Positions 137 to 41,300 of a stretch of 64,000 nucleotides of DNA are shown piece by piece. The notes beneath the pieces are model-generated. The model was not told the DNA's origin, did no database searches, and saw nothing but the letters and a program-made list of their open reading frames with translations. How positions within the stretch are numbered: the first letter of the stretch is position 1; every line of letters begins with the position of its first letter. The DNA lies in contig NC_089731.1 in the NCBI RefSeq assembly GCF_035083965.1, forward strand, positions 9,088,501 through 9,152,500, in the 5' to 3' direction. This stretch comes from Branchiostoma lanceolatum (taxonomy: Eukaryota > Chordata > Leptocardii > Amphioxiformes > Branchiostomatidae). A program made the translations under genes and the position numbers.

Positions 137-1835
137 ATTGGTTTTGCAGCAGCAGATGCTGCAACAGGACTGAAGCTGATAGAAAAAGGTGTCCAGAGAG
201 AGAACCTGGCCCTGCTGGCTGTCCCACTCACTCCTATCCAGATCCTGCTCCCTTTTGTGATCAGCCGGTACACTGCAGGCCCCAGGCCCATGGACACTTT
301 CCTAAAAGCCATGCCCTTCAGGTAAGGGGGGATATCTAATGTTCTTTCTCTTTTCAGGTGTATTTCATATTTTCAAAAAGTTACCAGTAACTTACTACAT
401 TGTATAATATTATGTACCATCGATAAGGGACTTTAGGTTTTAGTTTGTGCGAAAGATAATAACAAAGGGTGTTATCCATACAACTTTTCCATTTCTCTTT
501 GCCTATTTTTATAATAATTAGCTATCAAATGTTAACTGCACCCGCTTCTTTGCCATTTTATGTCATTTGTATGGATGAATTGAAGAACTAGTCTTTAAAA
601 TTTTGTTCTGTGATCTTTGCTTACACATTCTGAAGGTGCAACAAACAATGAATTGTTCTTTAATTTCTCATGAATATCTATGTTTCTCTGATGTAGGTTA
701 TTACTGGGTATAGAGCTGGCTGTCATGGTGTTCCTGACTCCATACTTTAAGAACGATGACGGCACCTTCCCACTCTACTACTACGTCATGATTGTAGCCA
801 GCTATTCCCTACATCAGGTAAACTGCGCATACAACATTACAACACTTGTAATTTTGAAAGACACTTCTCATTTGATAGTCTAAATTGTTTAACCACAATG
901 CAGCAATAAGGCTCCAACACAGTAGATACATGCAAGATATATCACATACATTACATGTAGATGAATCTGTTAAACGTCAAGTTTGAATTTTGGACTTTTC
1001 ACTAACCTCTACCTTCTCCTTGTGCCCAGGCTACTCTTTAATGACCTTTGACCTCTCCCCGTGCCCAGGTGGCCTTGTACAGTATGTTTGTGTCCACCAT
1101 GGCGTTCCACGCCCAGATCAGCGACCCCGTGATCGGCGGGACGTACATGACGCTGCTCAACACGCTCGCCAACCTGGGTGGGAACTGGCCCTCCACGTTC
1201 GCGCTGTGGTTGGTGGACGACATCACATGGTCTAGGTGTGATGGCGTGGAAGGTTTGATGTGTGGGAGTGCAGATCTGAACAAGGTAGGATATTTCTATT
1301 GTTTATAGTACAGTGCATTTACTTTAGTATGTTCCCTTAAAATCTGTACACTAATCTAACAAGAAGAGAGCATTGAGAAACAAACAGATTTCTGATCTAC
1401 TCTGCATAATCCTTTACATGCAATTTTGAGCGAGATCATACTAGGATATTGTTTTCTTGTCTTATTGTATTCTTACCATCTTAGTTGTACAGAAGATGAT
1501 TGAATCTCTGAAAATTTATAATTTCTCTTAAGATCTAAAGATGCTGTTAGGTTTTTTATACCCAATTTAGAGTACATGTGCATGTACTACACAAGAACTT
1601 CAGTCCAAACCTTTTTTCCATCTGAAAATCTTGATGTATTTTTAATATGTTTGTTATTTTTGATATGTTACAGGCATGTGAGGTCGCCGGCGGGACCTGT
1701 AGTACTTGGCTGGATGGCTACTACATAGAGTCTGCAGCGTGCCTGGTCATCGGGTTCATATGGCTGAAGTTAAGTGCCAACACTGTTAGAAAACTGCAGA
1801 ACAAAGAGCTGTCAGCCTGGTCAGCTTCATCATAG
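137..1835 (+). CDS. SLC33A1: Acetyl-coenzyme A transporter 1, C-terminal four exons (5' part lies outside the window)
   Basis: Four exons join in phase: 137-321, 697-817, 1069-1284 and 1674-1835 (stop TAG). Each is flanked by AG and GT. They give the last ~227 residues of a protein that is about 550 aa in vertebrates. The conserved SLC33A1 segment GGTYMTLLNTLANLGGNWP lies in the third exon, and several hydrophobic membrane segments are visible (for example around LLALLAVPLTPIQILLPFVI and the final LVIGFIW stretch). SLC33A1 is a major-facilitator-type carrier that brings cytosolic acetyl-CoA into the ER/Golgi lumen for protein and ganglioside acetylation (family knowledge). The window starts in the intron before exon 137, so the N-terminal half is not visible. 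The gene converges on the ABCG gene on the other strand. Identity is near certain; exact orthology is inferred from the protein alone. Confidence 0.93.
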
Positions 1836-10100: not shown

Positions 10101-13100
10101 TGCATAATCATCTACCTCTCCATTCAGAACCAGACACAGCTTGTCGAACACCTTGAAGATCTGTGAGGACGGCTGATGGATGGTGGTGACCACAGTCTTG
10201 TTCTCGGACATGGCGAGTCGCTTCACCGTCCGGATCAGGCTCAGGGCGGTGCTGGAGTCAAGACCTGATGTCGGCTCCTTAGAAGGAAAAGGAATTTGTC
10301 TTTAAGACATCGATTCATACTTGATGTGTCCATACTAAAAGTTATGTTCCATATTGACAAACAAGTACTAGAATATGATATCGCCATCCAGTATATATGG
10401 GTTTACTTTTTAATCACTTAACAATCTGATATATGACTAGTAAGTGTCAAACAACACTACAAAGAGAGAGTTCAACATGTTTAAACCAAAATAAAGCTGC
10501 CAGCAGCAACAGGCTATCATACCGACACACAAAAAATAAGAATTTATCATTACTTTGTATACCAGTAGGACTAGCTAATACAGTTTTCACGTAGTGTCCT
10601 GCTGGATAATATGCTCGTTTGTATAAAACGCAATGTTGAACGTACGTCCAGGAGAATGAGGGCCGGGTCTGTCAGCAACTCACACCCGATGTTCGCGCGC
10701 TTTTTCTCTCCTCCCGACAGCCCCCGCGATAGGTCATTTCCGATCTCTGCCAGAAACACACAAATAAACAAGGTTATCTGTACGTGAAAATAACAGACAT
10801 CGCGCCAAGAGATGGATTCAAAACATGAATAGAAATTTGGAATGCATGGCTCAATGCTACATCGACAGATTGTCGTCTATAATGGTGCTATTTGTATTGA
10901 TGATATAGAACTTTGCAAGTTGCTGTGGTATTCAAAAGGGAACATCAAGGTTGTCGGTACCTCTTTTTATTAATGCTCCTTTCAGAAGTTCATCGAAAAC
11001 TATGTACTTTTATGTTGTCGTCAGAACATTGAAAGGTAAGATTGACTCACGGGTGTCCAGGCATTTCTTAAGATCCAGCACGTCTACAATCCAGTCGACT
11101 TTCTTCACTTTCTCAGCGTACGGCATAGCGTCTGGCAGCCGCAGCATGGCTGTGAACTAGTCATGTCAACAACACGAGTTAGATGCCATTAATACTGTAA
11201 CTGTACATGTTGTAAACCTTTGAACAATGATATCAAGAGTCTACCTATATTTCAAGAACAATATTTCAAGAACAACATTGACATTCGTGCTGAAACTGTT
11301 GTAAAGCTTCAAGGATATCGTGAGTCTACCTATTGCGACGGCTTTCTTGCAATGTTTATTGTATTACAAGAACGACATTGATATTGAGGCGCGTTTTCTA
11401 TGTTGATTCGTTGATTCATACTTGGGGGCGCTGGACACTATTCTTCACATGATCGAGAAGTTTTGTACTATGAGAAACGAACATGTGCTAACACACTTTA
11501 AGATATAACCAACTAACCAGCATTACTATTATCATACATGCATAGTTTACAGGTACATCAATAACAAACTCACCATAAGCGTATCCCTGAGCGTCAGAGT
11601 GGCAAAGAAGATGTCCTGCTGCAGTACGTAGCAGATCCGCCGCTTGAGTCTCTTGCAGAGCGGCTCGCCGTTAAACGTGATGGACCCCGTGTCCAGACTG
11701 GAGTCAGGAATCCTGCCGGCCAGAGTGTTCAGTAGGGTCGTCTTTCCTGCACCTGTTGAAGCAAAGCCAGAGATTCTCATGTAATGCCCAAGTAGAATCA
11801 TGTCAACACAACCACCGCCAATTACCTTTCAGCAGCCTTCACAAGGGTGTAATGGACGCTGCTATCTCTTGCCGCGTGGTGGCGCTGCGGCAAGAAGAAT
11901 GCGGTCCCAAACGTGACTGACTTTACACCCCCCTCTCGTCTCTGTGATCTTCCTATTCATAGAGAGTGCAACATGGTTCCGCAGACGTTCGACGCTGCCC
12001 ATGACCAACGAATCCTTTGCTACGTTAGGTACGATCTAAGGATGCTATGATTATCTGATTACCTTATGACTAGTACCATAAAAAAATTAGAATATAATTT
12101 ATCGAAATTATGATCATTATGACCATCAACCCAACGTACCACTAGGTCCCATGACAGCGAGTATCTCCCCAGGCTCCACCACCCCAGCCACGTCCTTCAG
12201 CAGCACTTTGTCCTCCACCACGACCTTGACGTCCCGCCACACCACCCTCGTGCCTCGGGACGAGCCCCTGTTGATGCCGTTAGCACGGCGGCCGAGAGAG
12301 GGCGTGGTCTCGGTCCCCTCCCCTCCCTCTTCGATTGGGAGGTACATGTTGTTCTCTCTATGGGAAAGATGATATTCGCAGTGAATTCGAGTGTACGATT
12401 ATAGCATATTTGTCAACATATTGTTTTCTTCACAGGGAATGTGGCAAAGCGATCCAAAAGCACGTAATGTTTTCCTATCTTTATTCTCTACAAGACAATG
12501 CTGAAGCGATCTTACAAGGAACGCATAGCATATTGGGAAAAAAGTATTACATGTAATATGTGCATTTTCACTTTGATATATGCCATATGTATGGTACGTA
12601 ATTGTGGACCATTGGATTTGACGAGTTAAAGTAATCTCGAAGAACATTAGTGGCTCCTATCACTTTCCTAAAACTGACCCCGACCTTTCAAAGGGTCTCA
12701 TTTTAAGCGTTTTGTTGGTACTAAACCAGCCAAACTGGCCCAATGTGGTCACTTATGCAATGCAAAAAATAGCCCACAGTTGTCAACAATAGCAAAAGTG
12801 TAGGTGTGTTCTCTCAAGCACGTACGAGTATGTACATTGAAACTGTCAGTGATGGTTTCATTTCATTTTGAAGTGTGATTTATGTCCACCCCGTGTTGTG
12901 AATGTATATAGGAGTGTGAAGTTTGACAGATAAAAATGTCTGGACCTACATTGTATATATCTGAGCGTCATACTTATTAGATTATTTTGTTTTTAACAGG
13001 ACAATATTGTTAGACTGTACCATTACCCTTTTTCGCACGATATCCAGTAACACTTTTATTCATGTTTCTTTTTTTGTAGAACACATTTTGAGTCGCTGAA

Positions 13101-17214: not shown

Positions 17215-17934
17215 CGCTTCTTGTTCTGGTGCGAAATGGAGCGAGAAGTTTCCGACAGGGGAGTTTTACAGCGTGACCGTCTCTTAAGGTTTGTTTACTC
17301 TCCTCCCATCCGGCGTAATGCGTCCTTCTGATTGGTTAACGCGGTTTATGGTTAGGGTGTTGCAACCTTGTGGTAAATCAATTAACTAACTTCAAGTGCT
17401 GCTGGTAAAACAGGGAAATTAGGGTATATTCACGTTTGAAGGGTGTGGGTCAAGGACTGGGTCGAAGACTTAGAAAGAAACAGAGAGAATGTCGCTATTT
17501 TTATGAAGCTGATGCAGACAAATCGACACATTTGATGCAAAACGTCCATGGCAAAACAAGCTAATTTTGTTGCCGTTTAGTCTATCGAGTCTCAAATCAA
17601 ATCTGTGAGGTCGGCATTGTATACCATGCATAAAATCTCGTTTGTGTTGTTTTCAGTCCTTAGTGGGTAACGTGTCGATGCCGACATGTAGGACAACTCC
17701 ACATTGATACACGATACTGCTAAGGATAACGCCTTTGTATGGCAGGTTCTCATGCGGATCTGCAAAACAAACATCATGCTACATGCACCCAGTGCGACTT
17801 AATGCAGGTCTCCATGCCACGAGTATCATCGCAAATTGCCGAGAACCTCAGACGTCAATGATTGTATATTTACGACTGGAGAATTTTCTTTTATCACATA
17901 TAATTTTTTTTCCATTTGAACAATTTGATTTGCT

Positions 17935-18778
17935 AATGATGACTTGGATTGGTGTCAACATCAGTGGGAGGACCATTAACAACTTAAGGTTCGCAGATGA
18001 CATCGGCCTGATTGCGACCTCACCGGAAAGACTTCAGGAGCTGCTGGATCTTGTAAATACTGTATCCATGGAGTATAGTCTAGAGATCAGCACCAAGAAG
18101 ACCAAGGTCATGGCAACAACAAAACAACCCACAGTACTGAAGATCTACTGCCAGGGGGTCCTGCTGGAGCAGGTACCAATCTTTAAGTATCTGGGCGCCA
18201 TTATTGATGAGACAGCTGGAAGCAGTCGTGAGATCAGTGCACGCCTGGGAGCAGCGCGGACCGCCCTTAGTTCCCTGGAGACCATCTGGAAGGACAGGGC
18301 ACTGCAGATCTCTACCAAGCTGAGGGTGCTGAAAGCCCTGGTCTGGCCCGTGGTGACATATGGCTGCGAAGCATGGACACTTCATGCTAAGGACACTCAG
18401 AAGATCCAAGCCTTTGAGATGAAGTGTTACAGGAAGCTACTAAGGGTCAGCTGGACAGAACATCGTACAAACAACTCAGTGCTAGAAGAGCTGGGGATTC
18501 AAAGGACACTACTGAACATGGTAAAGAGAAGGAAGCTGCAGTACTTTGGCCACGTCACTCGAGCGCAGAACATCTCAACCCACATCCTGCAAGGGAAGAT
18601 CTGCGGCACCAGAAGCAGAGGGAGGCCACGCAGGAGATGGGGAGATGACATAAAGGAGTGGACAGGACGGTCACTTGCAGAATGTACCCAGAGGGCGAAG
18701 GACAGGGAAGGATGGAGGAAGCTTGTGCTGAAGGCGACCATGGTCCCCGACCCTCAAGATGAGGATGGGACTAGGTGA
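17935..18778 (+). mobile_element. 5'-truncated LINE (non-LTR retrotransposon) reverse-transcriptase fragment
   Basis: An open frame in the + strand (open from 17735; similarity from about 17935) carries the reverse-transcriptase active-site segment LRFADDIGLIATS, KTKVM, the thumb-like FKYLGAIIDE, and the C-terminal motifs YGCEAWTL, FEMKCYRKLLRVSW and GRPRRRW. These are typical of the RT/C-terminal region of metazoan non-LTR elements. The endonuclease and the N-terminal RT are missing. The stop TGA is followed immediately by a GGTGAA-type tandem tail (about 18770-18795), a usual LINE 3' end. The retained frame of ~280 codons has no internal stop, so the insertion may be young. It lies between the two ABCG first exons, on the opposite strand. 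Clade not resolved. Confidence 0.88.
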
Positions 18779-21876: not shown

Positions 21877-24800
21877 ATGGTGCAGGTTCTTCTGTGGATA
21901 TCTTTATTTTGGCTCTTCAGAATAGGTAAGTCTGATAAGCATCGTTTGCAAATGTTCAACCATCCTGGATTTTTTGATGAATTTTATTTTCGTCTAGATG
22001 TTTAACGTTTTTGTTTGGCAATGATAATGTCCCCTCACATCTATTTCTTGATCGCCATTGTTCTCCTTCCTTGAATTCTAACAATGAAGAAGAAAATGTC
22101 TTACTTTACAAATGCCTTTGAGGTATACAAAAATAATTGCCGAGTAAGTAACATGTACTAGTCACAAAGAGTAAGGCAGGCAGGCTCTTATATTTCTTGT
22201 TGTATATCAGGTACTTTTTTATTTTTCTTATTGTTTATTTCGGGCTCAACGGCCCATTTTGACAGACAGACACATATACATCAACGATACATCTAAACGG
22301 AGAGGATTTTTCTAAGAGATACGACAAAAAAGTTACAAGAACTGTGTGCGTCTTTTTGTGATCTGCTAATTTACAAATACGATCCTTTCTTTGTACGTAA
22401 TACTTTCTGTAATTCTTTCAGTCAATGATTGTCATCTTTCTACAATCCCCAAATAGTGAAAGACAAGCCGGGTCAAGATATCTTTCCTTTTATTTCGTTC
22501 AGAAACTATAGAAGCTGTTCCGGATGTTACGTTGGTCACTGAGTACCAGTTTGTGCCGTCCGCATCTACCGGTCAAAACACATCTCTAAAATGTGTGGTC
22601 GGAGGAGACTTCAGTGGGGTGGAGTTCAGTGCCGAGCGGAACCGGCGCCTCCCAGCGGCTCGTAGCAGTGTAGCAGCCATCGATGACGAGTCATGGCCAG
22701 GGCGCATGGTGACGTTCTTTCCGGAAGGTATTGCCTGTGTCACTCTTATCATGCCTCTGGTGTTCTCTTAATAGCTATAGACAATAACGTTTACAGATAA
22801 TGTTAGTCAAATATGCTATGGATGAACAATGTAGGAACAGTACTATGTTTTTTTTCCACGGGCTTATTGGTCCTTATTGTTCTTTATGATAACTTTTATG
22901 TATTTATGCTAAACTTTTAGGTGGCCTGGACAGGGTAGGAGTCTTCTCAAGTACAGTGACCTTCCCAGATGACCAGAAGGTCAAAGTCACAACCGTTGGA
23001 ATCTCAGCTGACGGTGAGTTGTCTCTTTAGCGGAAATCTGATTTTAGAGGTCGCACACTTGATCGATAAAGCGATAAAGGTGTAAGCAGTTTGTAATATT
23101 CTGTGCTTGTTTGTGCACAAACTTATATTTGACGACTCTATTAGAAATTCAAACCTACTGTTTGTCATTATCAGTGCTTTTAATTTAGGATTGCTTCGTG
23201 GTCTTGGTATGGATGGTTATATTTTTAAATGGCCCTGCTTGTAATCAGAGAAAGTGATTTTGATGTTATCGCTTTTTTCGAATATAGCCAACATCTACCC
23301 GAAGTACTTCACTGTAACAGCGAACAAGGGAGATTCCGTCACACTGTACACACAAGCGGTGGAGCAAACACAACAGGTTAGGACTGTTCTTTGTCTTCTC
23401 TATTGTTGGCATTTTCCCACGACTCTGACAATGTACGTGTTCTCTGCATATAGAGTGGTTTTACGTACCCCAGTGATATGTACATCTACTGAAACACGTA
23501 TACTGGCGTTCGGTTTGCCCATATGCACATATCTGCTGTTAAGACAATAATACGATCACATACTAAGTATTCATTATCCTAATCCCCTTGATACTTAGTT
23601 GTTCCAATAAAAATATCATCTGCCTTTTTCTCAAGATCAGTACTCAGGATGTCATATCTACATGTATAAAGCTGCTTTGTGTGTCTTCTCCGTTAGACTG
23701 ATGTCCGGTGGCGGAGAAACGGTTTCCCGTTGTTCGGCCCGACCCAGTTCACCCTGGAGCTGACGTCCCTGGACCCACGCTTCCAGCCCGGGGTGTACGA
23801 GTGCTACTACCTTAGCGACTACAGCCAGAAACGCCACGCCATTTCTTTGCTTATCGTCAGAGGTCAGAATGACAAAGATTTTGTAGCCTCTACCAGAACC
23901 AATGGATGGCTAAAAAATAGAAGAAATTGGTTAGAGTGAATAGTATCTAAGGGAGTCGGCTACGGAGAGAGCGTCCAATATGCCAGAGGCCGCAAACTGT
24001 AACTTTTATAGCGGACTAACTTCTCTGGCATGGTATCCGTCTGTTTGGCCAATTTCTACGATTTTTCCAGCGACCTGTGGAGACTGGTAGAGGCTAAAGA
24101 TTTTGTGCATGTAATGTAGTTTGAAAACCATCAGAAAATTTGAGAGCTTGAAAACGTTGCTATTCGGCATTTTAACATCTGCTTGGAGTCCTCGTGACTG
24201 ACCGATGTCTGGATGTTGTTGCTGTCTAGCCTGTCCTGAGGGGCAGTGGGGAGGGGAGTGTGACCTGCCGTGTCCAGTCTGTCTGAACGGCGGGCAGTGT
24301 CAGGTGGAGACCGGGGAGTGTGTGTGCGCCCCTGGCTTCATGGGACCCACCTGTCGGACACGTATGTAGAACTATGCCTGTTCCATTGTGTCATCTATAA
24401 AGCATATTATTTCGGTATTCATTAGAGTTTTACGTTTATCATTGATAAAAGTATGCCAATAGTGTTCTTTCGCGTTGGAATTACACATAGATGTATCATG
24501 TAGAATAGAGTAATGTTATAATCTTTTTGCTTTATCCTATTTCTTTTCTAGTTTCATCCAATTGTCACTTGGTATCTTTCATTTGTATCTTAATTGGCTG
24601 GGTCTGTCTTTTGATTCTTGTAGGCAAGATGCTTAATCTGACTCGGACACCCCCAATGATGAGCTTGAACAAAAGTATCCCCACCCCATCACCTTTGTTT
24701 ATGCTCTTTAGCTTACTTTATAGACGCCACCTTTCGTATTCATTTCATGTTCTTTTGATACATGTTTGCAAATGTGTCACAAACAGCTTGTGGAGGCAAC

Positions 24801-27800
24801 AGGTTCGGAAGGGACTGCAGCTTCCGTTGTGACGAGTCCGACCGAGACGACCCAGCAGGCTGCTCGGGACACCTGTTCTGTCTGCCCGACCCGTACGGAT
24901 GTTCCTGCGGCCCGGGCTTCACCGGGCTTCTCTGTCAGAGAGGTAACAAACCAGAAAATGGTTATGAGACATGGAATCTCTGACTGATTTCTACTTACTA
25001 GTTTCTACTACGCGTGCGAGTAACATTCCAGAAAGACCAACCCGGCATAGCTGCATGTGATATTGGAATTCTTTGGAACTAAATACATGATATTATGTAA
25101 CTATTTGGCGCGCTCCTGAATCAGGAGAGAAAACAGAGAAATAAGAATAAAGGTACAAAATATTGATGTGTTGAAAGAAAATTTTGATAAAGAAAATGAA
25201 GAAGCATTCGAATAACTTAAAGATAACGCATTGTACAACTCTGTTGATACTGTAGAGTGCAGTCCTGGCACATTTGGCGCGGGATGCCAGTCCACCTGTC
25301 ACTGCTCCAGTATTGGTCCAGACGCGTGTGACCGTTACACCGGGGCATGTCGGGACGGGTGTGCTGCTGGCTGGACCGGCCCCAACTGTCAGGAAGGTGC
25401 GGCTTATTAACATACACGTATACAGTATGGGTAATTTTCGAACCACAGGCATAAACGCCACACCAGAAAGACCAGGCGGAGGCCCTGCTTTGCAGCCAAT
25501 CGTTGCTTTGAGTGTTTCTTGTTATCTGATATTAGCGTGCAGTACTAACGTTAGTGACAACTATTCATTTCTGCACTAGAAGCGACATCGTTCCGTGAAG
25601 TTTGCATCCCGAATCCGTGTCGGAATGGAGGTACATGTTCCCCGGAGCTGGCAACCAGCGGCTTCTCCTGCTCCTGTGAGCGCGGCTATACAGGACAACA
25701 GTGTGAAGAAGGTATCAACACTCCCTTATACTCTATAGCTAAGTTTCTTACTCAACTTCTATCAGATCTTTTCATTGCTGGTTAAATAAAGATTTGTCAA
25801 CCTTCATATTTGGTTCGCCACGAAAAATTAAGCAATATAACGTTACATTTCAAGACGTTGCAAAGCCAGGGGAAAGGTGGAGCTAACGTTGCAAGTCTCC
25901 GTAGACATGTACACATCAAGTAAGTTCTCCAATTCTCGTACCCGTTCAAGGTCATATCGCACGAACTAATTTGATGAATTCTAGATCTATTTCACTGTCA
26001 TTTTCTTGGAGTTTCGCAGGAAAAACGATACAGGTACCTCTGTTCACTGTGTTTTCAGAACTTGACGAATGTGAGTCGACTCCATGTCAAAACGGCGGGG
26101 TGTGCTATGACGAGGTGGGGTCCTATGTGTGCGTGTGTCCGGAGGAGTACACTGGAGTCAACTGCGAGGAAGGTACGCCTTCGGCAACAATTTTTTGGGA
26201 ACTTTACCATATGCACGCATGGGCTACTCTTCGCAAATGTTTAAAGGCCTTTCATTAAGAAGCATGTCATGGAAATATATAATTCGAACTTGTTAAAAAC
26301 GTAACCGAGCATCTCAAATGTTTTGCCTTCAGAAACATTTGTTTTCCCCTTTTCCAGACCGGGACTTTTGTGAGTCCGATCCTTGCAGGAATGGCGGCAC
26401 TTGTGTTACCGCTCCTCAGTCGTTCATGTGCCTCTGTCCGGAGGGATACATGGGTATTACCTGTTCTATAGGTAAGCTATCATAATTATCATGTTCAAGT
26501 ATTCATCATCGGATAGATTGTAGCCTAGATATGCTTACGGTATTAAAGCGCCTTCTGGCGGGCTATGTAATTATTGTGATTGGCCAATCAATAATTCTAA
26601 TAATCATTTGCCGCAGGCTATTGGTTGAATGCCACCTAGATACACCAATGAAAGCGTAGCAAATACACACCGACCGTAGATTTTTTTACCTGTCTATCAA
26701 AGTTTGTCTGCCTGCCATTGGCTAAAGTGCAGAAATTTTGACCAATCATGTTAGCAATAACCTATATGTTAGCCAATCAACATCAATGTTACTTGCCCAA
26801 CAAACCGAAATAACTGCTATTTATTCAGTGAACGCTAGATGTCGCTGCAGGACCGTGAACGATACATGAACTTGATATCACTTGTTGTAACTTCAGAAGT
26901 AGACGAGTGTGCCTCGGACCCGTGTCTGAATGGTGGCAACTGTACTGACGGCGTGGCCTCCTACAGCTGCGCGTGTCTGTCGGGATTCAACGGGACGGAC
27001 TGTGAGATAAGTAAGTGTTTCATCCATCAACGACGCCATCCGCTCTTTAGGCCTTTTTTTTCTGACAAGTTCACAAAGCAAACCACTATGATTCAATTTC
27101 TTCCCAGACCGTCGCTCTGACTTTCTATCCTACTGTTTATGTCGTTATTATCCTTTGCAAAAACCAAGTTTGTAGTGTGCACGAATTCTTAGTGCTATTC
27201 AGTTCAGTTATCAATAACAAGTGGCTGTTGCTTATACTGTGATTCCAGACATAGACGAATGCCACCGTGACGCATGCGCAAACGGAGGGATCTGTGAAGA
27301 CGGAATCAACGGTTTTACCTGCTTCTGTTTCCCAGGATTTACAGGGCCAACATGTACAGGTGATAATCTGTTTACAATTTTACCTAGGGGCTCACACAGA
27401 ATAATCGGTAAAGAGATAAATAAAATAAGCACAATTAGAGAATAAGACAGGGTAGCTTTGTGTAGTGTATAGCGTCTCTGCATGGTTTCTCAGCCGATAA
27501 CTTAACTTTGATGTGGCTGTTATATGTCTGAAATATTGAAACGGACAACGCAGAAATGAAAAGTACTGGTTGTGTCGATAGTTTTTCATGTGTTGTACAA
27601 GTGTACCTACTGTATGGTTCTGATTACCGTTAACAGAAAACCCGGATGACTGCGCGTCTTCTCCCTGTCTGAACAACGGCACGTGTATAGACGGAGTTCA
27701 CATGTACTTCTGTAACTGTACAGACGGGTATGGGGGAGAGAGGTGTGAGGAAGGTATACTTCGCCCGGCCGTGTCACTCTTTTTATGTGTTAAACAATTT

Positions 27801-30643
27801 TTTTCATCGTTTTCGACAGTAGGAGCATTGTTGACTTTGATTTTTGTGCTTTCTCTGATTAAGCAAATAGTACGACCCCCTATGGAACGAATTAGTCTGA
27901 AAACCAATCTATTGCAAACTTCAGAAATAGACGAGTGTGCATCGGACCCGTGCCTGAATGGCGGCAACTGTACTGACGGCGTGGCCTCCTATAGCTGTGT
28001 ATGTCTGCCGGGGTTCAACGGGACGGACTGTGAGATAAGTAAGATAAAGTCATCTTTATTTTCATTACTGCTTAGCCAACAATACAGCAGATTACTAGCA
28101 GCTGAGCGATGGGGATGGACATGCATTTGTACAAAGAACGTACAGGACAAGTGAAACTCGTTGTCCATTGTCATTCTTTGTGTTGTACAAAATTAAGAAA
28201 GCAACTTCACAACTATTTGTGGAAGCTAGTTCTAACGTATTGTCAACATGTTTAACACTATAAGCTAAACTTTTATACCGGTGAGTCAAATATACCACGC
28301 AGTCGATTGTATCGTTTTTAATCCTTGTGAAGCACATAAGATGAGATTGTTCTGAAGTTCTTAAACATGAACAATCGATATTGTTCAATCGATGGTGTAA
28401 GCTTTTAACATATAGGACTGCTTCTTCTGAAAATTGCCAGGAAATGCTTTTTTTTGGTTCCAGACATGAATGAATGCCACCCGGACGCATGCGCAAACGG
28501 GGGTACCTGTGAGGATGGCATCGACGATTTCACCTGTGTCTGTTCCCCGGGTTTCACTGGGGCGACATGTCTCGGTACATTGTTTGGTTGTTTATTTGTT
28601 TAGAATATCAATTATAACACACAAGTACATCGTAGTTACTATAATTCTTCCTGTAGCCCTATGTTATTGTCTGCTTTGTCCTCCCCATTTTTCAACGTTC
28701 CGTGTACGACGTCATGAGTCCAAGTGAAGTGGAATATCTTTGCTTTGGTAATATTCCTGGTACTAAGAATTCTACCGGCCTGTGTAACCCATCTCTCGCT
28801 ACCACAGTACCAGGGTCTGAATAGGCTTGGCGGACGGTCAGTCTGGCTGGCCGCTTGGAGCTCGAATTATATAGTCAACTAATCATACTAGCTTTGTCAC
28901 TTTTCGACTCACAGAAAACATCAACGAGTGTGAATCTTCCCCATGTCTAAACAATGGGACGTGTATAGACGGAGTTAACGAGTACTTCTGTGACTGTATA
29001 GACGGGTATGAAGGAGGGAGATGTGAGGAAGGTACTTTAATGCAACTTAATGTCATTATGAGTCACTTGCTTTCAGTATTCTTGCGTCGTGGGATGTGGT
29101 AAAATCTTAGGAACGATCTGAATTCTGACATGTGCACGCAACCATTTTTGCTATTTTTCATCAGGAAAACTAGCTAGGTAGCAAGGAAATGTTAAGATTT
29201 TCATTCCTAACATCAGCGGTGAGATCATAAAGGCGTACAGTTTGCATGTAATTTATTCGAGTTAATGACAATAATCTTTATTTTCCAGAGACAGATGAAT
29301 GCCTGTCCCTCCCATGCCATAACGGCGGGACCTGTCGCGACGCCGTGGCAACTTTCACCTGCTCCTGCCCTCAAGGATTCAGCGGTGACCTCTGCCAGGT
29401 CATTGAACCCAACATTACTGACCTTGACGTTCCAAGCATCAACCTTGAGGATAACGTGCCGATTCTTACATCAGCGAAGGAACCTGAAAGCAGAAGTGAG
29501 ATTAAAACATTTCTCGCGGCTACAGTCCTTGGTGCTGATAAAAATGTTGTTGACAAGAACGCCACCTTGAACAATACCGCCCCCTCAAACAGTGGTGGTG
29601 ATGATTCCGCCATGTTCAACGGTACCGACTCTAACGTCAACGCAACTCTTGAAAGTGCAGAGCTAACAGGTAGGAACTGATTAGATTAATGATATGTAAC
29701 TTTACCATAGCAGCGTGATAGCAGTATGATATCGATAAACCAAAAAATCTTTGTTACACAAGAATTTTCAAGTTAAAGATATCGTGATTTTTATTTGGTA
29801 TTGCGTTGTATCATAATTGTATATCAAAAAGTATCATACTATCAATAGCATATGCCACGGTTTTATCAGACCGTTTAAAGCCCATTCTTTATACATATGC
29901 ATATGCATATGCATATGTAGACGAAGAACAAACGATCTTATATGCATACATACGTCTAACTGGGTACACAATACTACACATGTATTTTTCATTTCATTTT
30001 TAGAACAACATGTCCCCAGTCCTGCGGACAATCCTACCTACCCATATGAGCACATTAGCGGCAACCTTCACTCTTGGAACGACAGCTATCTCCAGGACTG
30101 GGAGATGCTCCTTCAGACGGGATGTAACGGAACCATCCTCAAGTTAGAGGCAGGACCCAACAGTTCGCTGATTTGTAAGTTACAGATGTGGAGATGTTAT
30201 GAATTACAGATAGTTGAGGTATATAAACGTGGATGTTCCAGACACGCTTATCCGTTTAAGACGAGGATAACTTCAATACGATGCTTGGCGCTAGCGATGT
30301 CTTTAAGTGTGTCAATGTGACTCTAGGAGTGGCATATGAGCCTGCTGTCTCCCTGAACGGTAGCAATAACCTGGAATCCAAATCTATTATAGCTCCCGAG
30401 TCTCCGCGAAGAGAGACTCGGTAGCTATAATAGGTTTGGATTCCAGGCTACGGTAGCAATGAATTTCTCACTAAGTCTCAGATTCCTAAACTGACTTATC
30501 TGGTTCCCATATTTTCTGCAGGTTTGGAAGACGCCCCTCCGGACGAGTCCACGTCCACCCTCCCCCTGCAGGTGTTTGCCCTGGTGGTCAGTCTGGCCGT
30601 CCTGGTCAACTTTGTAGCCATGACCTGGTGGCAACACTCGTGA
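21877..30643 (+). CDS. Tie-receptor-like, kinase-less surface protein with Ig-like and 13 EGF domains (20 exons, 922 aa)
   Basis: Exons: 21877-21925, 22503-22727, 22921-23013, 23288-23376, 23697-23862, 24230-24361, 24787-24942, 25256-25396, 25580-25711, 26059-26172, 26358-26471, 26897-27010, 27249-27359, 27637-27753, 27925-28038, 28464-28574, 28915-29031, 29289-29669, 30004-30174, 30522-30643. They total 2,769 nt, with all phases compatible. A signal peptide ([14 protein letters not shown]) comes first, then two Ig-like regions with little cysteine conservation. Three atypical EGF modules follow whose spacing and words match TIE1/[24 protein letters not shown] (as in Tie2), and [10 protein letters not shown]. 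Ten ordinary EGF modules come next, many with calcium-binding D-x-(D/N)-E-C starts and C-x4-T-C O-fucose sites. A Thr/Asn-rich stalk and a C-terminal hydrophobic run ([16 protein letters not shown]) end in TWWQHS. There is no FNIII or kinase domain. The C-terminus fits a single-pass anchor with a tiny tail, or a GPI signal. Probable role: extracellular ligand binding or adhesion; partner unknown. Confidence 0.88.
29894..29917 (+). repeat. Short ATATGC tandem repeat
   Basis: Four copies of CATATG/ATATGC in the intron between exons 29289-29669 and 30004-30174 of the Tie-like gene. Simple-sequence repeat. Confidence 0.7.
30368..30449. mobile_element. 82-bp palindromic mini-element with 11-bp direct flanks (AGCCTG family, copy 1)
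   Basis: Arms 30370-30404 and 30413-30447 are inverted repeats of 35 bp with two mismatches (outer word CCTGGAATCCAAA, inner CCGAGTCTC). The 11-mer ACGGTAGCAAT occurs immediately before (30357-30367) and immediately after (30450-30460), as expected of a target-site duplication. It lies in the last intron of the Tie-like gene. Related elements are at 37223-37325 and 54051-54102. Confidence 0.82.
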
Positions 30644-30977
30644 TGAAGGGAGAGAGCTTAATATCACAAGAAGAGAAAATCGTGAAATTCACTTTTAAAG
30701 GTTGCAAACAATACAGTCGCTAAGACGTATGTATTGTTATAATCATCGAAGCGCCAAGTTGGGGTTGGGACAAGCCTGGCCATTGAGTCAGGCTCAAGTT
30801 GTACGGCCTTTATATGTTCCATAGCAAATATTTTTGTTTTATCTTTTTTCATAACTTCTTTCATTTTTAATCACCACCTGAGCACCGCCGACCACACAAT
30901 AGCCGTGCACCTGGGTGTGCCTTGAATCGGGCTCAGTTAGTGCGGCCCGGTAAATATTCCACCGTACAGTCCATGTT

Positions 30978-31290
30978 GGGGGGTGTCCCTGTGGTGTAGT
31001 GGTCTGCGCTTCTGTCTCTCACCACATCTGGTTCAAATTACGTGGACCAGAAGGACTGGGGTTCAAGCCCCAGGTAGGACACCTCTGGACAAGAGGCGCA
31101 TTGAGTCATACCAAAGACTTTATAAGAATGGTACATACTTCTGAAACAGTATGGAAGTTAAACACACCTCACTGCCAGTGGACTAGCCCCCTGCTACATT
31201 GATTGCACCACAGTGTGGCCCAGGGCTATGAAACGGAGATGGGCACCGCCCTATACATCAATAATGGTGTGGGAGGATTTTAACAAACAG
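30978..31290 (+). mobile_element. tRNA-derived SINE, second family
   Basis: An A-box-like TGGTGTAGTGGTCTGCG (about 30992-31008) and a B box GGTTCAAGCCC (31060-31070) are followed by a ~200-bp body. That body is shared with a headless copy at 44136-44372: both contain GGTACATACT, CCAGTGG..TAGCCCCCTGCT, GATGGGCAC and a GGTG(T/C)G..AGGA end. It sits in the presumed 3' UTR of the Tie-like gene. Confidence 0.75.
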
Positions 31291-31694
31291 TCCATGAAAT
31301 GTCAAATGGAGATGTAGAAAGGGTGATCATGCATGACTTTATGATATGTTACTAACTCTTTACTAACGGTTAAAGCCACTTTTCAATGAAAGTCACGTAG
31401 TCAACATTCACAGCAACGTTTTAAACTTTCAACACGTACGAAGTTTGCTCTGCTGCTATTTAACTGTATTGGGTTACGAGCCGGCAGAAATACATTTCCT
31501 TAATATACATTTATCGTGCGTACATACTGAGACCTTTGCTTGTATTCTGTTGATAACTCTTTACCACAGGTTTGGTTAATTCTAGACAGATATCATATTG
31601 AGGAACATCAATGATTTGCAATTATACAAAGTCATGATCAGCCAGCTGTTAATTGCGGTATCTGTAGTGTTTTATGAAGGCCGTGTGTTTACAA

Positions 31695-31700
31695 AATAAA
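31695..31700 (+). terminator. Polyadenylation signal AATAAA, Tie-like gene
   Basis: First canonical AATAAA hexamer downstream of the Tie-like stop codon, about 1.05 kb after it and before the GOLIM4 promoter region. Confidence 0.5.
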
Positions 31701-32396
31701 GGAACTACTTATCTGTATCTAGTCTTGGACACATACCATTGTTTCTATCTCTTTCTCTGATAATGAACTATTGAAATTTGACTCTCATGATAAAGAAAAA
31801 AACTGATATCTAAATCACATTCTCTGAGTCACCTTTGATGACTTTTCAATTATAAGACTGAGTTGTGGATGAAAGCTACTAGCAGATTGCTGCAGTGTAT
31901 TTCCCAAGACATCTATTGAACCTCATACGATGTCATTTTCAACTGCCCCGGCGGAGAACTTTCTCTTGTCCCAGGGTCACAAGTGAAAGTTCTCTAAATG
32001 CCCCGCCCACTTCCCCACGTCCCGGCATGCAGCGCGCTGACACGTCGCCATGTTGACATGCAGGTAGACCGAGACTTGTGGAAATAACTTTTTACTTCCC
32101 TTTAATTCTATCAACTCGAGCTAGAGAAGGACTCGGCCACTTCTCTGCCGTTTCTACAATCCCTGATACGTCTCTGTAAGCGTTTTTGGAAGCGTCCCGC
32201 CCGGTTTCAGCTGTGGATATATTTATTTTGGCATGTAAACACAGGCTGAGTTTTGACGGAAGGAAGGAAGATCAGTGCTGCACCTGTAAAACGCCCCCCT
32301 CCCCCCTACATCAGCTGACAGCTACCTGTACAGTACCTGGTAGTTAGTCCGCGTTTGCCTGACCACAGAGACGGTTGGATGAGAGAGGACGTCAGC

Positions 32397-35300
32397 ATGA
32401 TTTGTGCCCGGCGTGGCCAGGGGAAATGGCAGACTCTAATTTTCGTGTTGGTGCTGGTGGGGTTTGGGTACGGTGTTTACGAGTATAACCAGCTACAGAT
32501 CAGACATCAACACGCAGAACATAGGTCACAGAAATACCAGTCACAACAGGAGTCACTCTCCGCGCAGCTACAAGGTGGGCTATTCCTGTTCTACTTCTAT
32601 GTTACTATTTTTAAAGATGTACTGTTACTCTTATTTGCACAGCTGGCACTGGCAGAATGTTTCAGTGTACAGGCATGCGGTCATTAAACCACACTGGTCT
32701 GCAACATTTTGATATGTTTAATAGTTACTTCATTTGTCGAAACATTAAGTCACCAAGAAATAAAAACCTACATAGATTATTGACCCTGAACTGAAGTGAA
32801 ACCCAGCACCAAGAGATCACGTCTAGCAAAACAATAGACGTTAAACAACGACGACAACAACAATACCATTATCACTACATGTCAATGCAACGTTTTGATA
32901 TGAATTTTGTTCAGGTTTGGATTATTCAAATTGTAAATCAGTCGTATGCTATACAAGCACCAGCCAATATCCAAAGCAGAAACGGTCGTTGTCATCTACA
33001 GTAATTAATGATGCTAACTAATCACGTTCTTTTAGCAATAGTACTTTAAGGCCACTAAGCCTCCTCGGCTTAACCACATAATCAATATTGTTTGTATAGT
33101 TAAATAGCTCTTCACTTCAGTACCCATTGTAGTCAAACATACTTGAAACAACAAGAAGCATTGTCCTCTTTGGGAAGAGATGTCAGGCAAACACTCAACT
33201 TGGACTAGGTTGAGGATAACCGTAATTGATTTGTGTGGTATTTGCGAGTACAATGAAATATATCAAAGAGTATATCTTTTAGGGTACAGGTGAGACTTAA
33301 AACAATTGATTTTTAATCTTTGTCCTGCTGAGGGCTCACATTGTCACAAGAAAGATTCAATGTCTAAAAGTAAAAGCCCTGTCAATTCAACTTGTTAACA
33401 CCATGCAACTTATTTCTTTCAACTTCTGGTTATGAACATGATTGCATTGTTTATATTTTATCAATGAGTATCATTAAACAAAGTCTGACTCTGAATGCAA
33501 ATACTGATAGTGATCAAGATATCACAGATATCGTTTCTTGTATTCAGACTTAACATACTACTACTAGTACTAGTATTAGTACATACATGTATTTCTTTTG
33601 TGCTGAGAAACACTCTCCTTGTTTTGTACTGAACTTTTGGGCCATTATATATCAACTTACCTTATTTTCAGAAGGGTTCAAGAATTGAATGCTTTAGTTT
33701 AAATCCTGATTACAATGCAAATTTTATTGTCTGTCAATTACTAGAGATCTATGTTTGCATGGGTATGTTCTACTTACTAGTAACTACTTACTAGTACATT
33801 GATCTGTCAGTGGTTGGACAAGTAAAAGTCCATGAATTATAGGTGGTGTTAATTCTATGAAAAAGACCTTTGAAGCAAATAATCACTTTTTCGGTGTGTT
33901 CTTATTTCAGTTGCCATATTACGAAGCTGTGAAATTATACCACTGAAATTGTGATCTTAAAAGCATTATTGCACAATGAACAAAGTAATTAGAGATTTGA
34001 AAAAAATATGTAGACAGAGTGTGTATGACATTTCATAATAATATTTATTGTTGCAGAAAACCTTGACTTTCATAATTCAATGTAGGACTTTGTGCAATAC
34101 TAAAAGGGAGAATCATTTGTCAAGTAGATCTGCTTCATTCACCTTTGATGGTCCAACAATTGCAACCTTAACTGGAAATAATCAACACAAATAAGGTGAC
34201 AACTGACCTATTCAGAGTGAAGAAATCATTGATTAACAGTGATTTAGCCTGTAGCATACAGATATAAACAGAGGCACAGTTGACTTCTAGGTCTAAACAG
34301 AACCAGAAGTCCAGCTGTTGTAAGTTAAACTTGTGACATTTGCATCTAAACAGACACCGACCCCCTTCCTGCCAAGGTGAAATGCCTTGTAGCACTTGAA
34401 CTGTAGAACTGTGTGAGAGATTCAAGATAACTTTTGATATTTGTAAATTCTTAGGGCAGCGATTACATTGTAGAATTTTGATATATTGTTTTTCTCTCTA
34501 TTGCATTTTGTAAATAACTCAACCTTTTCCAATTCCTTTTCAGTTGTCTACGAACATCGGTCAAGACTGGAGAAGTCTCTACAGAAAGAAAGGAATGAGC
34601 ACAAGAAAACTAGAGAAGGTCAGATTTTGAACAAAAAAAACTGCTGTTATGACAAATCATATGTTGTTAATTAATTGTATGTATCTGTGGGTATGGATGA
34701 ATCTGTTTATATACTAGTATTGTGACTATTGTCCAATGATGTAATGTCTATCCGTTGTATCTCTAAGTATTGAGGGAAGATTGTTTTGTAATTAAATTAG
34801 TCATCACAGTGCATGAAGCAACAATTCAAGTTGCTGCTTTCACATAGCTAGAAAGCAGACATCCAACAGCCTCGTGACCTCCTAAAAGCTGCAAGAAAGT
34901 GTCATTTGAATTGCTCTGATCACTTGATGCTTGAGATTCATAAGTAATAAAAGATGATTATCATAGTTGAAAAAATTGTAATGTTGGCTGTAATATGATA
35001 TTACTTGGCTTGTAGTCTTTAGAAATTAAGTCTACCTTGAATATAGTGACATTATCATTACCTAAACCCTTGTATATGTAATAAAGCCTGAGCCTTTAGT
35101 GAGTGGGTCTGTCTCTATGGAGAAAAAGGCATTGAGTAAACACCAGTGTTGGTTGTGTACCATTCATGACCCGGATTTGAAGGCTGTGTCTGGCACAGTG
35201 TTCTCACCAGCGCCCGTCCTCCCGTCATTTGACGGGTTTTTGTCGCTCATGACGGACAAAATATTTGCCCAACCCGTCATTTTTAATGGAAAAAATTGGT

Positions 35301-38300
35301 GTGTAAAGATATTTAGACAGAGTTTAGAATTTTGCAAAAACTCCAGAGGATCACCGGAAAATCGCGACGAGGGCGATCTAGATCATTTCTAATGCCCGCC
35401 GGCGACAACCCCAGCCACACAAAGAGCGCCGTGGTGGATACTAGTATTTGGTGGCCGCCGAAAACTCGGCGTCATGCGCCGCCCTCCCCACAGTTTTGGC
35501 TGGTCGCATCGGGCTGACGTTTGTTTCTGTTTTGTCCCTCTCGGTTCACCGTCAGTTATTGTTATCAAAGAAGCCTAAAAATTCAGAAATATTCCTATAG
35601 CTATCAGGCTTTCTGTAATCTGTAAAACATTATTAAAGTTTCAAGCCGCGGCGGCTGAGTTGAATGCGCTTTCCTCCCGTAAGAAATGGTAAACAGGCGT
35701 CAGATATTCTATTCCACCAATCACAGTGCGTCGTCTCCGTCGCGTCAAGAAATACCGACCAATGACATGCGAGTCTCGCTACTCGCGTGATTTCAGCTAA
35801 GCGTGAATTTGCGAGATGTTAGAGGAATGGCGGGGATCGCAAGGATCGCACGACGAAGCGGCTGTTTGAAGGCTTGAATCGACAACTTTTGAAGACATTC
35901 AGTGCAGTTACCGGAGAAATTAACCGTGGAAAACATGGGAGAAAAAAATGGACGTCTTTATGGCGTTCTTTCTCAAAGTAGGGTGTCAAATTTCTCATTA
36001 TGTTCAATAAGTGAAGAGCGGCCTAAAATGGAACCAGCCGATTCCTACCTGGCCGAAGTCTACTCTACTCTACTCTACTCTAATAAATACAGGGAGCATA
36101 CGGGACAAGTGTTGAAAAATTTTAATTTTGCCGACTTATTCTGTGTGTATTTTTTGTAGGACGTAGATACGTAATAAAGTTTTGTTGTGCTTGATTTTCT
36201 TTTCTTTGCCGATTGTATACAACATATAAATGTAGCTTGTGTGTGAACATTCGATCTTACCGCGATGATCGACGGCACGCCTCCCCCCAAAATTAAGCCT
36301 GAAACCCTTGTGTAATTTTTCACCGAAAGAGATGTCATTAAACTAAGCTTATTCTACCAAGAAATTTGCCCCTCAAAATGCAGGAAATAGCGTTTCAGAG
36401 GGTCTAGATTCCAAAATTTTCCGGGGGAGAATACCCCCGGACCCCCCTAGGATAGGCGCTAGATATGTTCTTCTCGACAGGAAAATTGAAATGACGGGTA
36501 AAAATTTCAGGCTGGCGAGAACACTGGTCTGGCATAAAGCATACATGTACTAGTACACGTATCGCTTAACCTTCTTTCTGCCACCTTCGGCTGAGTACCT
36601 TGCGATTGTGTTCAATACAAATTTAAGGCCAATGGCTGCCTCAGAAGGTTGACACCGACTTGGTTGTAGACATGATGCATAGATAGATCACTATGCTGAT
36701 GGTTAATGCAACTAATAAACGATTTGAGTACACTGAAATCACCACTCATAATATTTGTGTATCTGGGATGTTGCGCCTACTTATAAACTCACAGTGTAAA
36801 ATATTCAGTGTAGACGTAACTTATTTTTGGGAAATCTTAGCAGTTACTTACATTTTACTTAGCATTTGCAGCAGTATTAAAGAGGTTCATCTGCAGTATA
36901 CTGTCTTTCTTTTTTCAGCGCGTGAACAAATATGATCATTTACCGATATATCAAGACCTGAAGAAAAAAGTTTTCTCTCTTCATAATCAAATCTGTCATC
37001 AGAACTAGTAAATTACAATTGATAATTGTGATTCTCTTATTTTCAGAATACGAACAGAAGCAGATTGAATCAGAACAGGTTCTAGCCAAAGAAAAGGTTT
37101 GTTTTAGAACTTGTTTTTTACTTGCCATATGTTTGATATTTTTTGTGGCTTTATATGTCTGATTAGGGCAGATGTGTATGTCTGTAGTCAACTCTGGTAG
37201 CTTTTTTAAGGTATGCTCATAATAGCCTGACAAATCGCGCTCCTAGTGTCCAGCCGGTTTCCGTGACCGCCTTTTCTTGGGTGGGGGTCAGTAACCTCCG
37301 GCTGAGAGCTTGTGTAAATACAGGCTATGCTCATAACAATTGAGAAGGAGCAGATTTGTAGATTAAAATTGAATGCAATGTTCATTGTTTCTTATCTTTT
37401 TCTCAATTCTCTTGAAATAGGTTTGATATTCAATTTTGAAAACTGTCTTCTTACAGCAAGAAGCAGAAAACAGATATGATTCTCTGAACCAGCAGTATAA
37501 AATGCTAAGGGTAAGTAAACCTGTTGACTAAAATTTTAGAGTCAGACATACATTGTAGTGTGTAAATTGTCATTGGTGAGACTGGTATTGCTGATCATGG
37601 TTGCTTAATACATTGTACATTTTATGCAAAATCAACATGTAAAGATAAAGAGAAATCAGATACTGATTTAAGAACCAAGATTCTATGGAGTAAGTACTAA
37701 GATATTATAAACAGGTTTGGCTGCTGCCTTCAGAAAAATCCTACAATATAAATATGAGTGTGCATATAGGTGTATGTTATTTTAGATTTGCCAAACCATA
37801 CATTGCAAAGTAGAATTTTATGTTTTGTCTATCATAGCGTTAATGTGGCCAGCAACAAGTAGCCATATACACAATTGTTACTGTTCACTGCTTCTTTAGT
37901 TTAAAATGATCTCAACACATGACATTTTCTTTTCTGGGTGCTATATCCTAATATTGTGTAATCATGGTCATAGAATCAGCATGAGGACCTGGAGAGAGAA
38001 TATGCTTCACTACAGGACCAACATGTCCGCCTTGGTGACGAACACAAAAAAATTGTGGACCAACATCTGGACAACTACCAGAAGTTAAAGGACCAAAAGG
38101 ACACAGATCTTCAAAGACTCAAAGGTGACGATACCTCTACATGTACAATATTGGCCAACTTTTAATAAAATAAATTTAATTTTTTATTTTTATTTTATTC
38201 AAATTGCAACAGGCAATACATGACCACCCAGGCAGCAGTAGCTGATTTTGGGCGTCAAACACAGCACATACAATTACAAGGTTGAAAACTACGCATATAT

Positions 38301-41300
38301 ACAAATAAGGTCACTAACGTACACAATGATTTATTAAAGATAATAATAAAAATAAAAGTAATAATGATAAAATGTCAAAGAGTTTTGAGGTTTGAGAGGT
38401 CAGAGGTCAAGGTTAACAATACTTAAGTAATTAAGATTTGGCATGGTAAGTTGACAGGGATGGCTTAAATGGAAGGCTTTGTAGAGGAAATATATGCTTC
38501 GACAGCCTTAAAAAGTTTTTTGTTTGTTAGAAATTAAAAGAAATTATAAAATGATGACAGAATTATTTTCCTCCTAGTAAGTATAACATGTAGTTTCAGT
38601 TTATCATATATTCTTTCTCCATCTATTGCTCAAATCTATCATATTTCCCTCTCTTTTCCACTAACTATTTTCCATTTTAACTAAATCCCTAATTTGTACA
38701 ATGAGACTTAGAACTAATGAACTATTTTCCATTCACAGATGTTATTCAGAACCTGAAGGACAGAAATGCACAACTTACGAGGGACCAGGAAGAACTTGTT
38801 AAACAGATTACAATATCTCAGGTCAGTGTGATCTACTGTACATCTATGAAAAATGAAAAATAAGATCCATAACAAAGCTTTGCGAGGAGGATTATAGAAA
38901 ATTTGCATGAATCAAATCAATAGGAAAATTTCCTTCACATTGACTTGAGGAAAAAAAATGATTATCTCTCAAACTCAACACACTCCCTACTGTTCTCTAG
39001 TTTGAAAGTTATGATTATGTTCAAAAGGTTTAGGTTCTCTTATTGGCTAAGGATAGTAGTAGTCTACCAATCACATGACGATATATCACCTCATTACCAT
39101 AACATTTATGAATGGTTTGTAAAGGGCCAATCAACTTTTGTTGAAAAGTTGATCCAAACAGCAAGCACAGTGTGATCAAATGTTATGTTATGCAATTCTA
39201 GTGGGAGATAGATACATAATGATAGCGTACATAATACAGTTACATGTATGTATGTATTAAACAGGACGGACAGAGGCGCTTGGAGTCAGAGAAACAAGAG
39301 CTGCTACAGCTGATCAGTGAACAGCGGACAGCTGTGGCAGCTGCACAGTCCCAGCTAGAACAGCAACAGGCTGAGCTGGAACAGCAGCAAGTTGAGCTGG
39401 ACAACCATGCTGTTGTGCAGAAACAGATGAAGGAGAAACACAGGACAGCACAGGCAGAGCTGGAGCAGAAGCTGACGGGGGTAGGACAGCAGAAACAGTT
39501 GATTAGACAGCAACACCCTCTTCAGCAACAGCCCATAGCACAGCACCAGGCTGTGCAAAAGCCACTAGTGAATAGGCAGGAACATGTTGCACAGTTGGCA
39601 CAGAAACAACCTGATTTGAATTCAAAGGTATTGATATTTGGTTCTTTACTACATGACCTTTAATTTGTCTTTATCAAACTGCTTTGTTTGTCAGTAACAG
39701 AAAGTGAGCGTGATTAGTTGCCATCTGATTCATATTCATAGTCAGGGTATCATCCAGAAATACAAGCAGATAGCAGGTCATCCACTGAATGGGATGTCCT
39801 TTTTTGCCAGTTTGTCCCCCTTGAAAACTGTTCATAAAAGATTGCTTCTCAGAACATCACTGTCCACAGCAATGTATCAACTTGATTTGTTCAAATCTGA
39901 ATATATGGTATCATAAGGAATTCAAGTCATTACATTTGTTCCTTGATCATTCCTTGCTCACTTATGTTTTTAAGCAGTCTTCCGTCCTACGTGGTTCAGT
40001 CCTTCTTGCCTCATGATCCAACTATAAGTCTTAGCTATAGAGTTTGACTGTCCAGGTGTTGCAGCTGATTAGATTAGACTCTTTGCACATGGCTCTTGGA
40101 GGATTAATATTACAGATGAAATTAGAACTAAGTCTAAGGTTTCTCGTCATTTCTGCTCTGCCTTGATAGCGGTATGTGCTAGGTGCAGCTGCAGCTCCAG
40201 GTGCATGGCAGCGGCGGCAGTGGCAGCCACAGGTGCAGACGTTGCCAAGGCAACAGGTGCTGCAGGTGATGCAGCTGCCGACTGTGACAGATACACTTTT
40301 CTTTCTTTGCCCCTCTGCTTTCCCTTTATTGCAGCCTTGCAGACAATTATTATCGAATGTTTTGTTTCTTACCTTAAAAATTTTGTTTTTTTTCAAATTC
40401 AGATTTCTTTATGCTTATTTCAGTGTTATGATATCTAGGCAAAAAGATGTCATTATCATGGCAATCATATTGGTTCTGATATCGATGTTGTGAATCAGAA
40501 TTAGACACAATGATAGTGTCTGCAGGGCTGTGATAAGCTAATTGCCATCATGCTTTCATCTGACTTAAACAGCATGTATTCTGACAGCATGAACATCAGA
40601 GCTAGACAACATGGAAAGTGATCTTCAAATGCAATGCTAAATAGTATCAGATTATGTACAACATTTAAAAGCTCTCTTTGTCAGATTTTGGGCTTGAAAA
40701 TCTAACAGCCATTGCTTACAAAGATTCTGGAATTTATAACTCAGTTAAACTATGGACATTTGTTTTCTAAGTCATTCTATGCCACTTGAAACTAAATGTT
40801 GCAATATTCTATTTACCGTCAAGCACAACAATGTAATTGCATTTTGTCAATTTCAAACTATATATATTTTAAGATAAAATGTATTTGCCTCCAAAATGTG
40901 GGAAGAACATTTTCAAATTTGTGCCAATCTTGCAAAAAGGGCTTTTATGAGACAGTGTGGCATTAGTGTTTAGCGTATTCATTAATTGTGCAGTGCTTGT
41001 TTGACATTGATTGGCATTCTTGTATTGCGCTGGTAGAAGCATGCACCTGTACCGTACATCAGAGGGCGCCCTGTACGCAGACAACAGCTGCTGCAGAAGG
41101 TAGGTGGGATGACCGAGCTGCATGTGTGGATGGCAGAATATTGCACAGAAATAACACACTAACTAAAGAACTTTCCTCTACATTCATCAAGGTGTGCACA
41201 GGACATTTCATCTCATATTTAATCCAAACAGAAAAGGCAATATATGCATTTAAAGGTGATAGTCTAACCCTTACTGATACTTGATAAAGTGTGTACTTTC

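Follow-up and report, generated by a model that had tools for sequence, protein, structure and literature searches.

The angiopoietins bind the receptor TIE2 through its second Ig domain (Ig2), in which F161 and P166 are reported as the most important residues and the motif F161-E169 is described (PMC8294587), and a homotypic interaction of TIE2 is reported to occur via membrane-proximal FNIII contacts (PMC8560823). TIE1 is reported not to bind known angiopoietins (PMC10281526). How the angiopoietin-Tie system arose outside vertebrates is poorly understood; one source lists the bilaterian ancestor gene of TIE1 and TIE2 as unknown (PMC6389290), and an invertebrate Tie orthologue, the sea urchin SpTie1/2, is described as a receptor tyrosine kinase (PMC12113024; also named in PMC6494969). 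Here, we describe a gene of the lancelet Branchiostoma lanceolatum at 21877-30643 (+ strand) of a 64-kb stretch of contig NC_089731.1, hereafter the window, in which a head related to TIE1 and TIE2 precedes ten EGF modules of the Notch/Delta type. A literature search on the gene, its evolution and the TIE2 binding site found no description of the gene; the 2008 survey of amphioxus tyrosine kinases lay outside this search, and absence from print is thus not established.

A Tie-type head joined to ten EGF modules

When residues 1-350 of the encoded protein were searched against the PDB with phmmer, the top three matches were TIE2 chains (2gy5, 9lv4, and 4k0v; E = 4.1e-44 to 3.2e-43), with the next of the 30 matches at 7.8e-07, and the TIE2 alignment covered residues 110-349. 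The triad of EGF modules alone retrieved TIE2 at 2.1e-29; the best non-Tie chain, SCARF1, matched it weakly (3.6e-8), and SCARF1-type EGF proteins thus resemble the triad but lie 21 orders of magnitude in E-value behind TIE2. In alignments with TIE1 and TIE2, with 233 TIE2 residues verified against the PDB chain, the triad was identical to TIE2 at 62/131 and to TIE1 at 66/132 positions, compared with 74/132 between TIE1 and TIE2. With all residues except Cys and Gly shuffled, none of 2000 shuffles reached the score of the triad against either receptor, and EGF1, EGF2, and EGF3 paired best with EGF1, EGF2, and EGF3 of TIE2, respectively, in the same order. The second Ig is also of the Tie type (0/2000 shuffles scored as high), with identities of 30/80 to TIE1 and 23/80 to TIE2. 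These comparisons strongly support a common ancestry of residues ~110-350 with the TIE1/TIE2 ectodomain. The original prediction had recognized a second Ig ending in LIVRAC and three atypical EGF modules in Tie order, which is borne out by searches, shuffles, and module pairing; its Tie-like N-terminal region of ~370 residues is right in the relationship and too long in extent, as the likeness ends near residue 350.

The gene model was recomputed from the DNA. Its 20 exons, with GT-AG sites at all introns, join to 2769 bases with a frame that is open throughout and ends at a TGA stop (30641-30643), giving 922 residues. Splicing thereby reproduced the coordinates, exon count, and in-frame closure that had been predicted, and the protein words quoted in the prediction are present as stated. 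Of the 19 exon junctions, 18 are of phase 1 and the one between exons 4 and 5, within the second Ig, is of phase 0; such phase-1 exons would be compatible with exon shuffling. The features of the locus are as follows:

21877..21925, + strand: exon 1, start codon and a putative hydrophobic signal-like N-terminus (judged by eye)
22503..23013, + strand: exons 2-3, at the position of Tie Ig1, with Tie identity unsupported by searches, shuffles, and Pfam
23288..23862, + strand: exons 4-5, Tie-type second Ig with the end LIVRA(C), from sequence searches, alignment, and shuffles
24230..24361, + strand: exon 6, counterpart of Tie EGF1, from PDB searches and module pairing
24787..24942, + strand: exon 7, counterpart of Tie EGF2 ([11 protein letters not shown]), from PDB searches and module pairing
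25256..25396, + strand: exon 8, counterpart of Tie EGF3, from PDB searches and module pairing
25397..25579, + strand: intron 8, 183 nucleotides, separating the Tie-type head from the EGF array; its retention would lead to a stop within a few codons
25580..29031, + strand: exons 9-17, nine Notch/Delta-type six-cysteine EGF modules, each on its own exon
26897..27753, + strand: exons 12-14, a three-exon EGF block present in duplicate, first copy
27925..29031, + strand: exons 15-17, second copy of this block
29289..29669, + strand: exon 18, EGF module ten and the beginning of the stalk
30004..30174, + strand: exon 19, remainder of the stalk
30522..30643, + strand: exon 20, C-terminal hydrophobic run (transmembrane helix or glycosylphosphatidylinositol (GPI) signal), tail TWWQHS, and TGA at 30641-30643
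31695..31700, + strand: AATAAA, the first polyadenylation-like hexamer 3' of the stop, a hexamer match and not proof of use

Downstream of the head, residues 351-736 form ten tandem EGF modules with six cysteines each, whose closest PDB chains, among the best 60 of 103 matches at E<=0.001, were DLL1 (2.6e-54) and NOTCH1 (1.2e-46). Matches to consensus motifs in the array comprise 7 sites of the O-glucose, 6 of the O-fucose, and 8 of the hydroxylation type. In Pfam, the 922 residues matched EGF-type families only, and the array passed the cut-off of the Teneurin EGF model PF25024. At E up to 1, the Pfam matches of the 922-residue protein included no DSL, MNNL, LNR, ankyrin, or kinase family. 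The protein resembles Delta-like 1 and Notch in its tandem six-cysteine modules, but differs from the Notch ligands in that no DSL domain was matched and from the Notch receptors in that neither LNR nor ankyrin repeats were matched. The stalk, whose single PDB match (0.81) is at chance level, carries 8 of the 16 N-glycosylation sequons, and the hydrophobic run at residues 898-916 (mean hydropathy 2.39) is followed by the six-residue tail TWWQHS. All three elements, the ten further modules, the stalk, and the short-tailed hydrophobic end, had been read correctly from the sequence. K or R does not occur in the last 22 residues. Such a lack of basic residues is not typical of stop-transfer helices and fits a GPI signal; the putative anchor may be either a transmembrane helix or a GPI anchor.

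The absence of a kinase, a third Ig (Ig3), and FNIII repeats, also predicted, holds within the window. A six-frame motif scan matched no HRD-type or VWSYG-type pattern there, and the two DFG-type matches (38241 and 40681) stand in non-kinase contexts. With the kinase part of TIE2 as the tblastn query, the best match in the window had E = 3.9, and with Ig3-FNIII it had E = 1.2 and lay outside the gene; Ig3 and FNIII repeats were also not among the Pfam matches of the model. In comparison to TIE1 and TIE2, the lancelet protein thus shares the second Ig and, in matching order, the three atypical EGF modules, but lacks a recognizable Ig1 and any basic residue in its last 22, and has ten Notch-type EGF modules in place of the Ig3, FNIII repeats, and kinase, none of which was found in the window. 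Since no kinase, Ig3, FNIII, or PF10430 (Ig_Tie2_1) was found, it does not belong to the TIE receptor kinases, although part of its head belongs to the Tie family.

Exons 12-14 and 15-17 are tandem duplicates of a three-exon EGF block. With the three exon pairs pooled, the synonymous divergence (dS) was 0.72 and the nonsynonymous divergence (dN) 0.108, giving a dN/dS of ~0.15 (0.10, 0.10, and 0.19 per pair), and the six duplicated EGF exons are under purifying selection. In a blastn comparison of the two blocks, the exons and their edges aligned and no intron did, the remaining matches being of <=16 nucleotides; a 171-nucleotide row at 100% is an artefact of including intron 14 in both blocks. 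The exon 12/15 pair is 91% identical, the other two pairs 77% and 80%, and gene conversion may account for the higher value.

Ends of the gene and neighbouring sequence

At the 5' end, an out-of-frame ATG lies at 21870, 7 nucleotides upstream of the proposed start codon, and 27 nucleotides of exon 1 (21887-21913) occur again ~10 kb downstream at 32206-32232 with 89% identity, which may be chance. At the 3' end, a scan for alternative C-termini from 30176 to 32310 (acceptor score at least 5, at least 35 codons) yielded the exon 20 acceptor, an extension of exon 20 by 25 codons in frame, and a 49-codon open reading frame (ORF) from 30572. The extension would arise from an alternative acceptor with an exon from 30447, adding codons 30447-30521; with the full matrix, this acceptor reaches 8.1 and the modelled one 7.2, and the modelled acceptor scores 4.1 when left out of the matrix. 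Intron 19 contains an inverted repeat at 30367-30450, with arms of 38 nucleotides that are 92% complementary and a spacer of 8 nucleotides.

Upstream of the gene, the window contains fragments of an acetyl-CoA transporter 1 gene at 62-322 and 1045-1305 (+ strand; PF13000), ABC transporter exons at 7063-11828 (- strand), where ABC_tran or ABC2_membrane matched three of the four scanned ORFs and the flanking ORFs look alike by eye, and, ~3 kb before the Tie-like gene, an open reverse transcriptase fragment (RVT_1) at 17708-18775 (+ strand). Downstream, Gln/Glu-rich, coiled-coil-like ORFs extend over 32319-45577 (+ strand), which we take, by eye, to resemble a Golgi integral membrane protein; 39235-39660, the sole ORF scanned among them, had no Pfam match. 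An ORF with a sub-threshold zf-AD match lies at 50345-51529 (- strand) and includes a tandem repeat array (51115-51388), and a rhodopsin-family G-protein-coupled receptor is located at 56978-57814 (- strand; 7tm_1, 1.2e-18), with adenosine receptors as the closest PDB chains.

Possible function and origin

Our preferred reading, to which we give a little less than an even chance, is that the gene encodes a Tie-derived surface protein without a kinase, a membrane-bound decoy or co-receptor that arose from a Tie gene by phase-1 exon shuffling. After secretion via the signal-like N-terminus, the distal head, consisting of the Tie-type Ig2 and the three Tie EGF modules, would be kept off the membrane by the ten calcium-type EGF modules and the sequon-rich stalk, and the C-terminal hydrophobic run would anchor the protein as a short-tailed transmembrane helix or via a GPI anchor. 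The head would bind either a Tie receptor or a fibrinogen-domain ligand akin to the angiopoietins, with no signalling of its own; as it would be able to bind but not to signal, a role as decoy or co-receptor is suggested.

Several results weigh against this reading. The first Ig-like region had been predicted to be Tie Ig1, and this assignment was not supported. Against TIE2, 59 of 2000 shuffles equalled or exceeded its local score and 900 of 2000 its end-to-end score, and against TIE1 these numbers were 502 and 788 of 2000, while the same shuffle test joined TIE1 Ig1 to TIE2 Ig1 (0/2000) as a positive control. With a TIE1+TIE2 profile, the region ranked third among 1001 sequences. PF10430 matched human TIE2 at 1.4e-45 and did not match the lancelet protein; no Ig family was found in Pfam at E up to 1 with the 922- or the 350-residue protein, and the 192-residue Ig region alone matched Ig_3 at 4.4e-05, under the curated cut-off. 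A PDB search with the two Igs alone, at E up to 10, did not bring up TIE2, and we therefore dropped the Ig1 claim. The Ig region (22503-23862) contains two cysteines only, one per presumed Ig (SLKC and GVYEC, respectively), and the canonical Ig disulfide is thus missing from both; TIE2 Ig2 in the PDB chain has no cysteine. As for the putative ligand-binding site, F161 and P166 of TIE2 were paired with F and P in one alignment and unpaired in the MAFFT alignment, so that retention of these angiopoietin hot spots varies with the alignment. TIE1 is the closer relative in Ig2 and yet does not bind known angiopoietins, so a Tie-type Ig2 is no guarantee of angiopoietin binding, and the absence of the FNIII unit that mediates homotypic contacts in TIE2 weakens the version with a Tie heterodimer. 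SVEP1/Polydom binds TIE1 and has 10 EGF-like domains, which could point to EGF arrays as partners of Tie; as it binds through CCP20, this hint was set aside (PMC10281526).

The main rival explanation is that the protein serves adhesion in general, or matrix binding, with a repurposed Tie-type head, and has neither an angiopoietin-like ligand nor a part in Tie signalling. The ten six-cysteine modules with their O-glucose, O-fucose, and hydroxylation-type sites resemble adhesive or Notch-type arrays, the TIE2 ligand-binding motif is not clearly retained, and Ig1 has diverged, but the EGF triad beside the ligand-binding Ig is well kept, its identities to TIE1 and TIE2 given above being not much lower than that between the two receptors, and we consider this explanation rather unlikely. 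Another possibility is that the gene is a relic, left over from a kinase-less ancestor that gave the Tie receptors their ectodomain; this appears improbable. The triad is about equally distant from TIE1 and TIE2, which places the gene outside the TIE1/TIE2 split, and one account regards shuffling of extracellular parts between tyrosine kinase families as likely (PMC8662651); however, the divergent Ig1 looks derived, and the reported sea urchin Tie1/2 (PMC12113024), a Tie orthologue compared here by description only, differs from the lancelet protein in being described as a receptor tyrosine kinase. The kinase form therefore probably predates the chordates, and loss of the kinase end would be the simpler direction. 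Deep ancestry is also disfavoured by a survey that reports no TIE member in silkworm and describes the subfamily as nearly missing from lower metazoans (PMC5979338). On account of the sea urchin gene, and hence only indirectly, an origin from a Tie gene is favoured over an ancestral partner.

It was also considered that the model fuses two neighbouring genes, a Tie-type protein (exons 1-8) and an EGF protein (exons 9-20). Lancelet gene models reportedly carry many prediction errors, including false fusion (PMC4967905), the EGF exons are all of phase 1 so that a false join would keep the frame, and AATAAA hexamers are present in some introns, 7 (25146) and 9 (25785) included. Intron 8, however, is the second shortest of the 19, its donor and acceptor score 7.2 and 6.3 with a leave-one-out matrix, inside the range of the others, and neither AATAAA nor ATTAAA was found in it. 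Between 24001 and 25579, the region scanned for alternative start exons, only one passed the thresholds; it starts within intron 5 and continues into Tie EGF1. Among the 19-residue windows, the six listed as most hydrophobic are all in exon 20. From intron length, splice scores, alternative starts, and polyadenylation-like hexamers, we judge such a misjoin unlikely, indeed very improbable, and a single mRNA presumably spans all exons. A decaying or non-expressed copy, for which the single cysteine in each presumed Ig could speak, appears extremely improbable: the frame is open across 20 exons with GT-AG sites, and the low dN/dS of the duplicated exons next to diverged introns argues against decay of the array, with nothing direct to say on the Tie head.

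Of the interpretation originally offered, Tie ancestry of residues ~110-350 is strongly supported, as is their junction with an array of Notch/Delta-type EGF modules, with no kinase, Ig3, or FNIII found in the window; the Ig1 assignment is not. Phase 1-1 exon shuffling at a high rate is reported for lancelets (PMC4284660), which would fit a shuffling origin, and the gene bears on the dispute over whether new domain combinations in lancelets reflect genuine exon shuffling (PMC4284660) or gene-prediction errors (PMC4967905). It is possible, though doubtful, that this invertebrate chordate evolved a kinase-less membrane-bound Tie of its own, with the Tie head held out on an EGF spacer of the Notch type. 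Such a protein would capture angiopoietin-like ligands or form pairs with a Tie kinase, as a natural layer of decoys or co-receptors in a lineage that lacks vertebrate endothelium. If true, the Tie binding module would have been used or reused apart from the kinase, and its binding partner before vertebrate endothelium would become testable.
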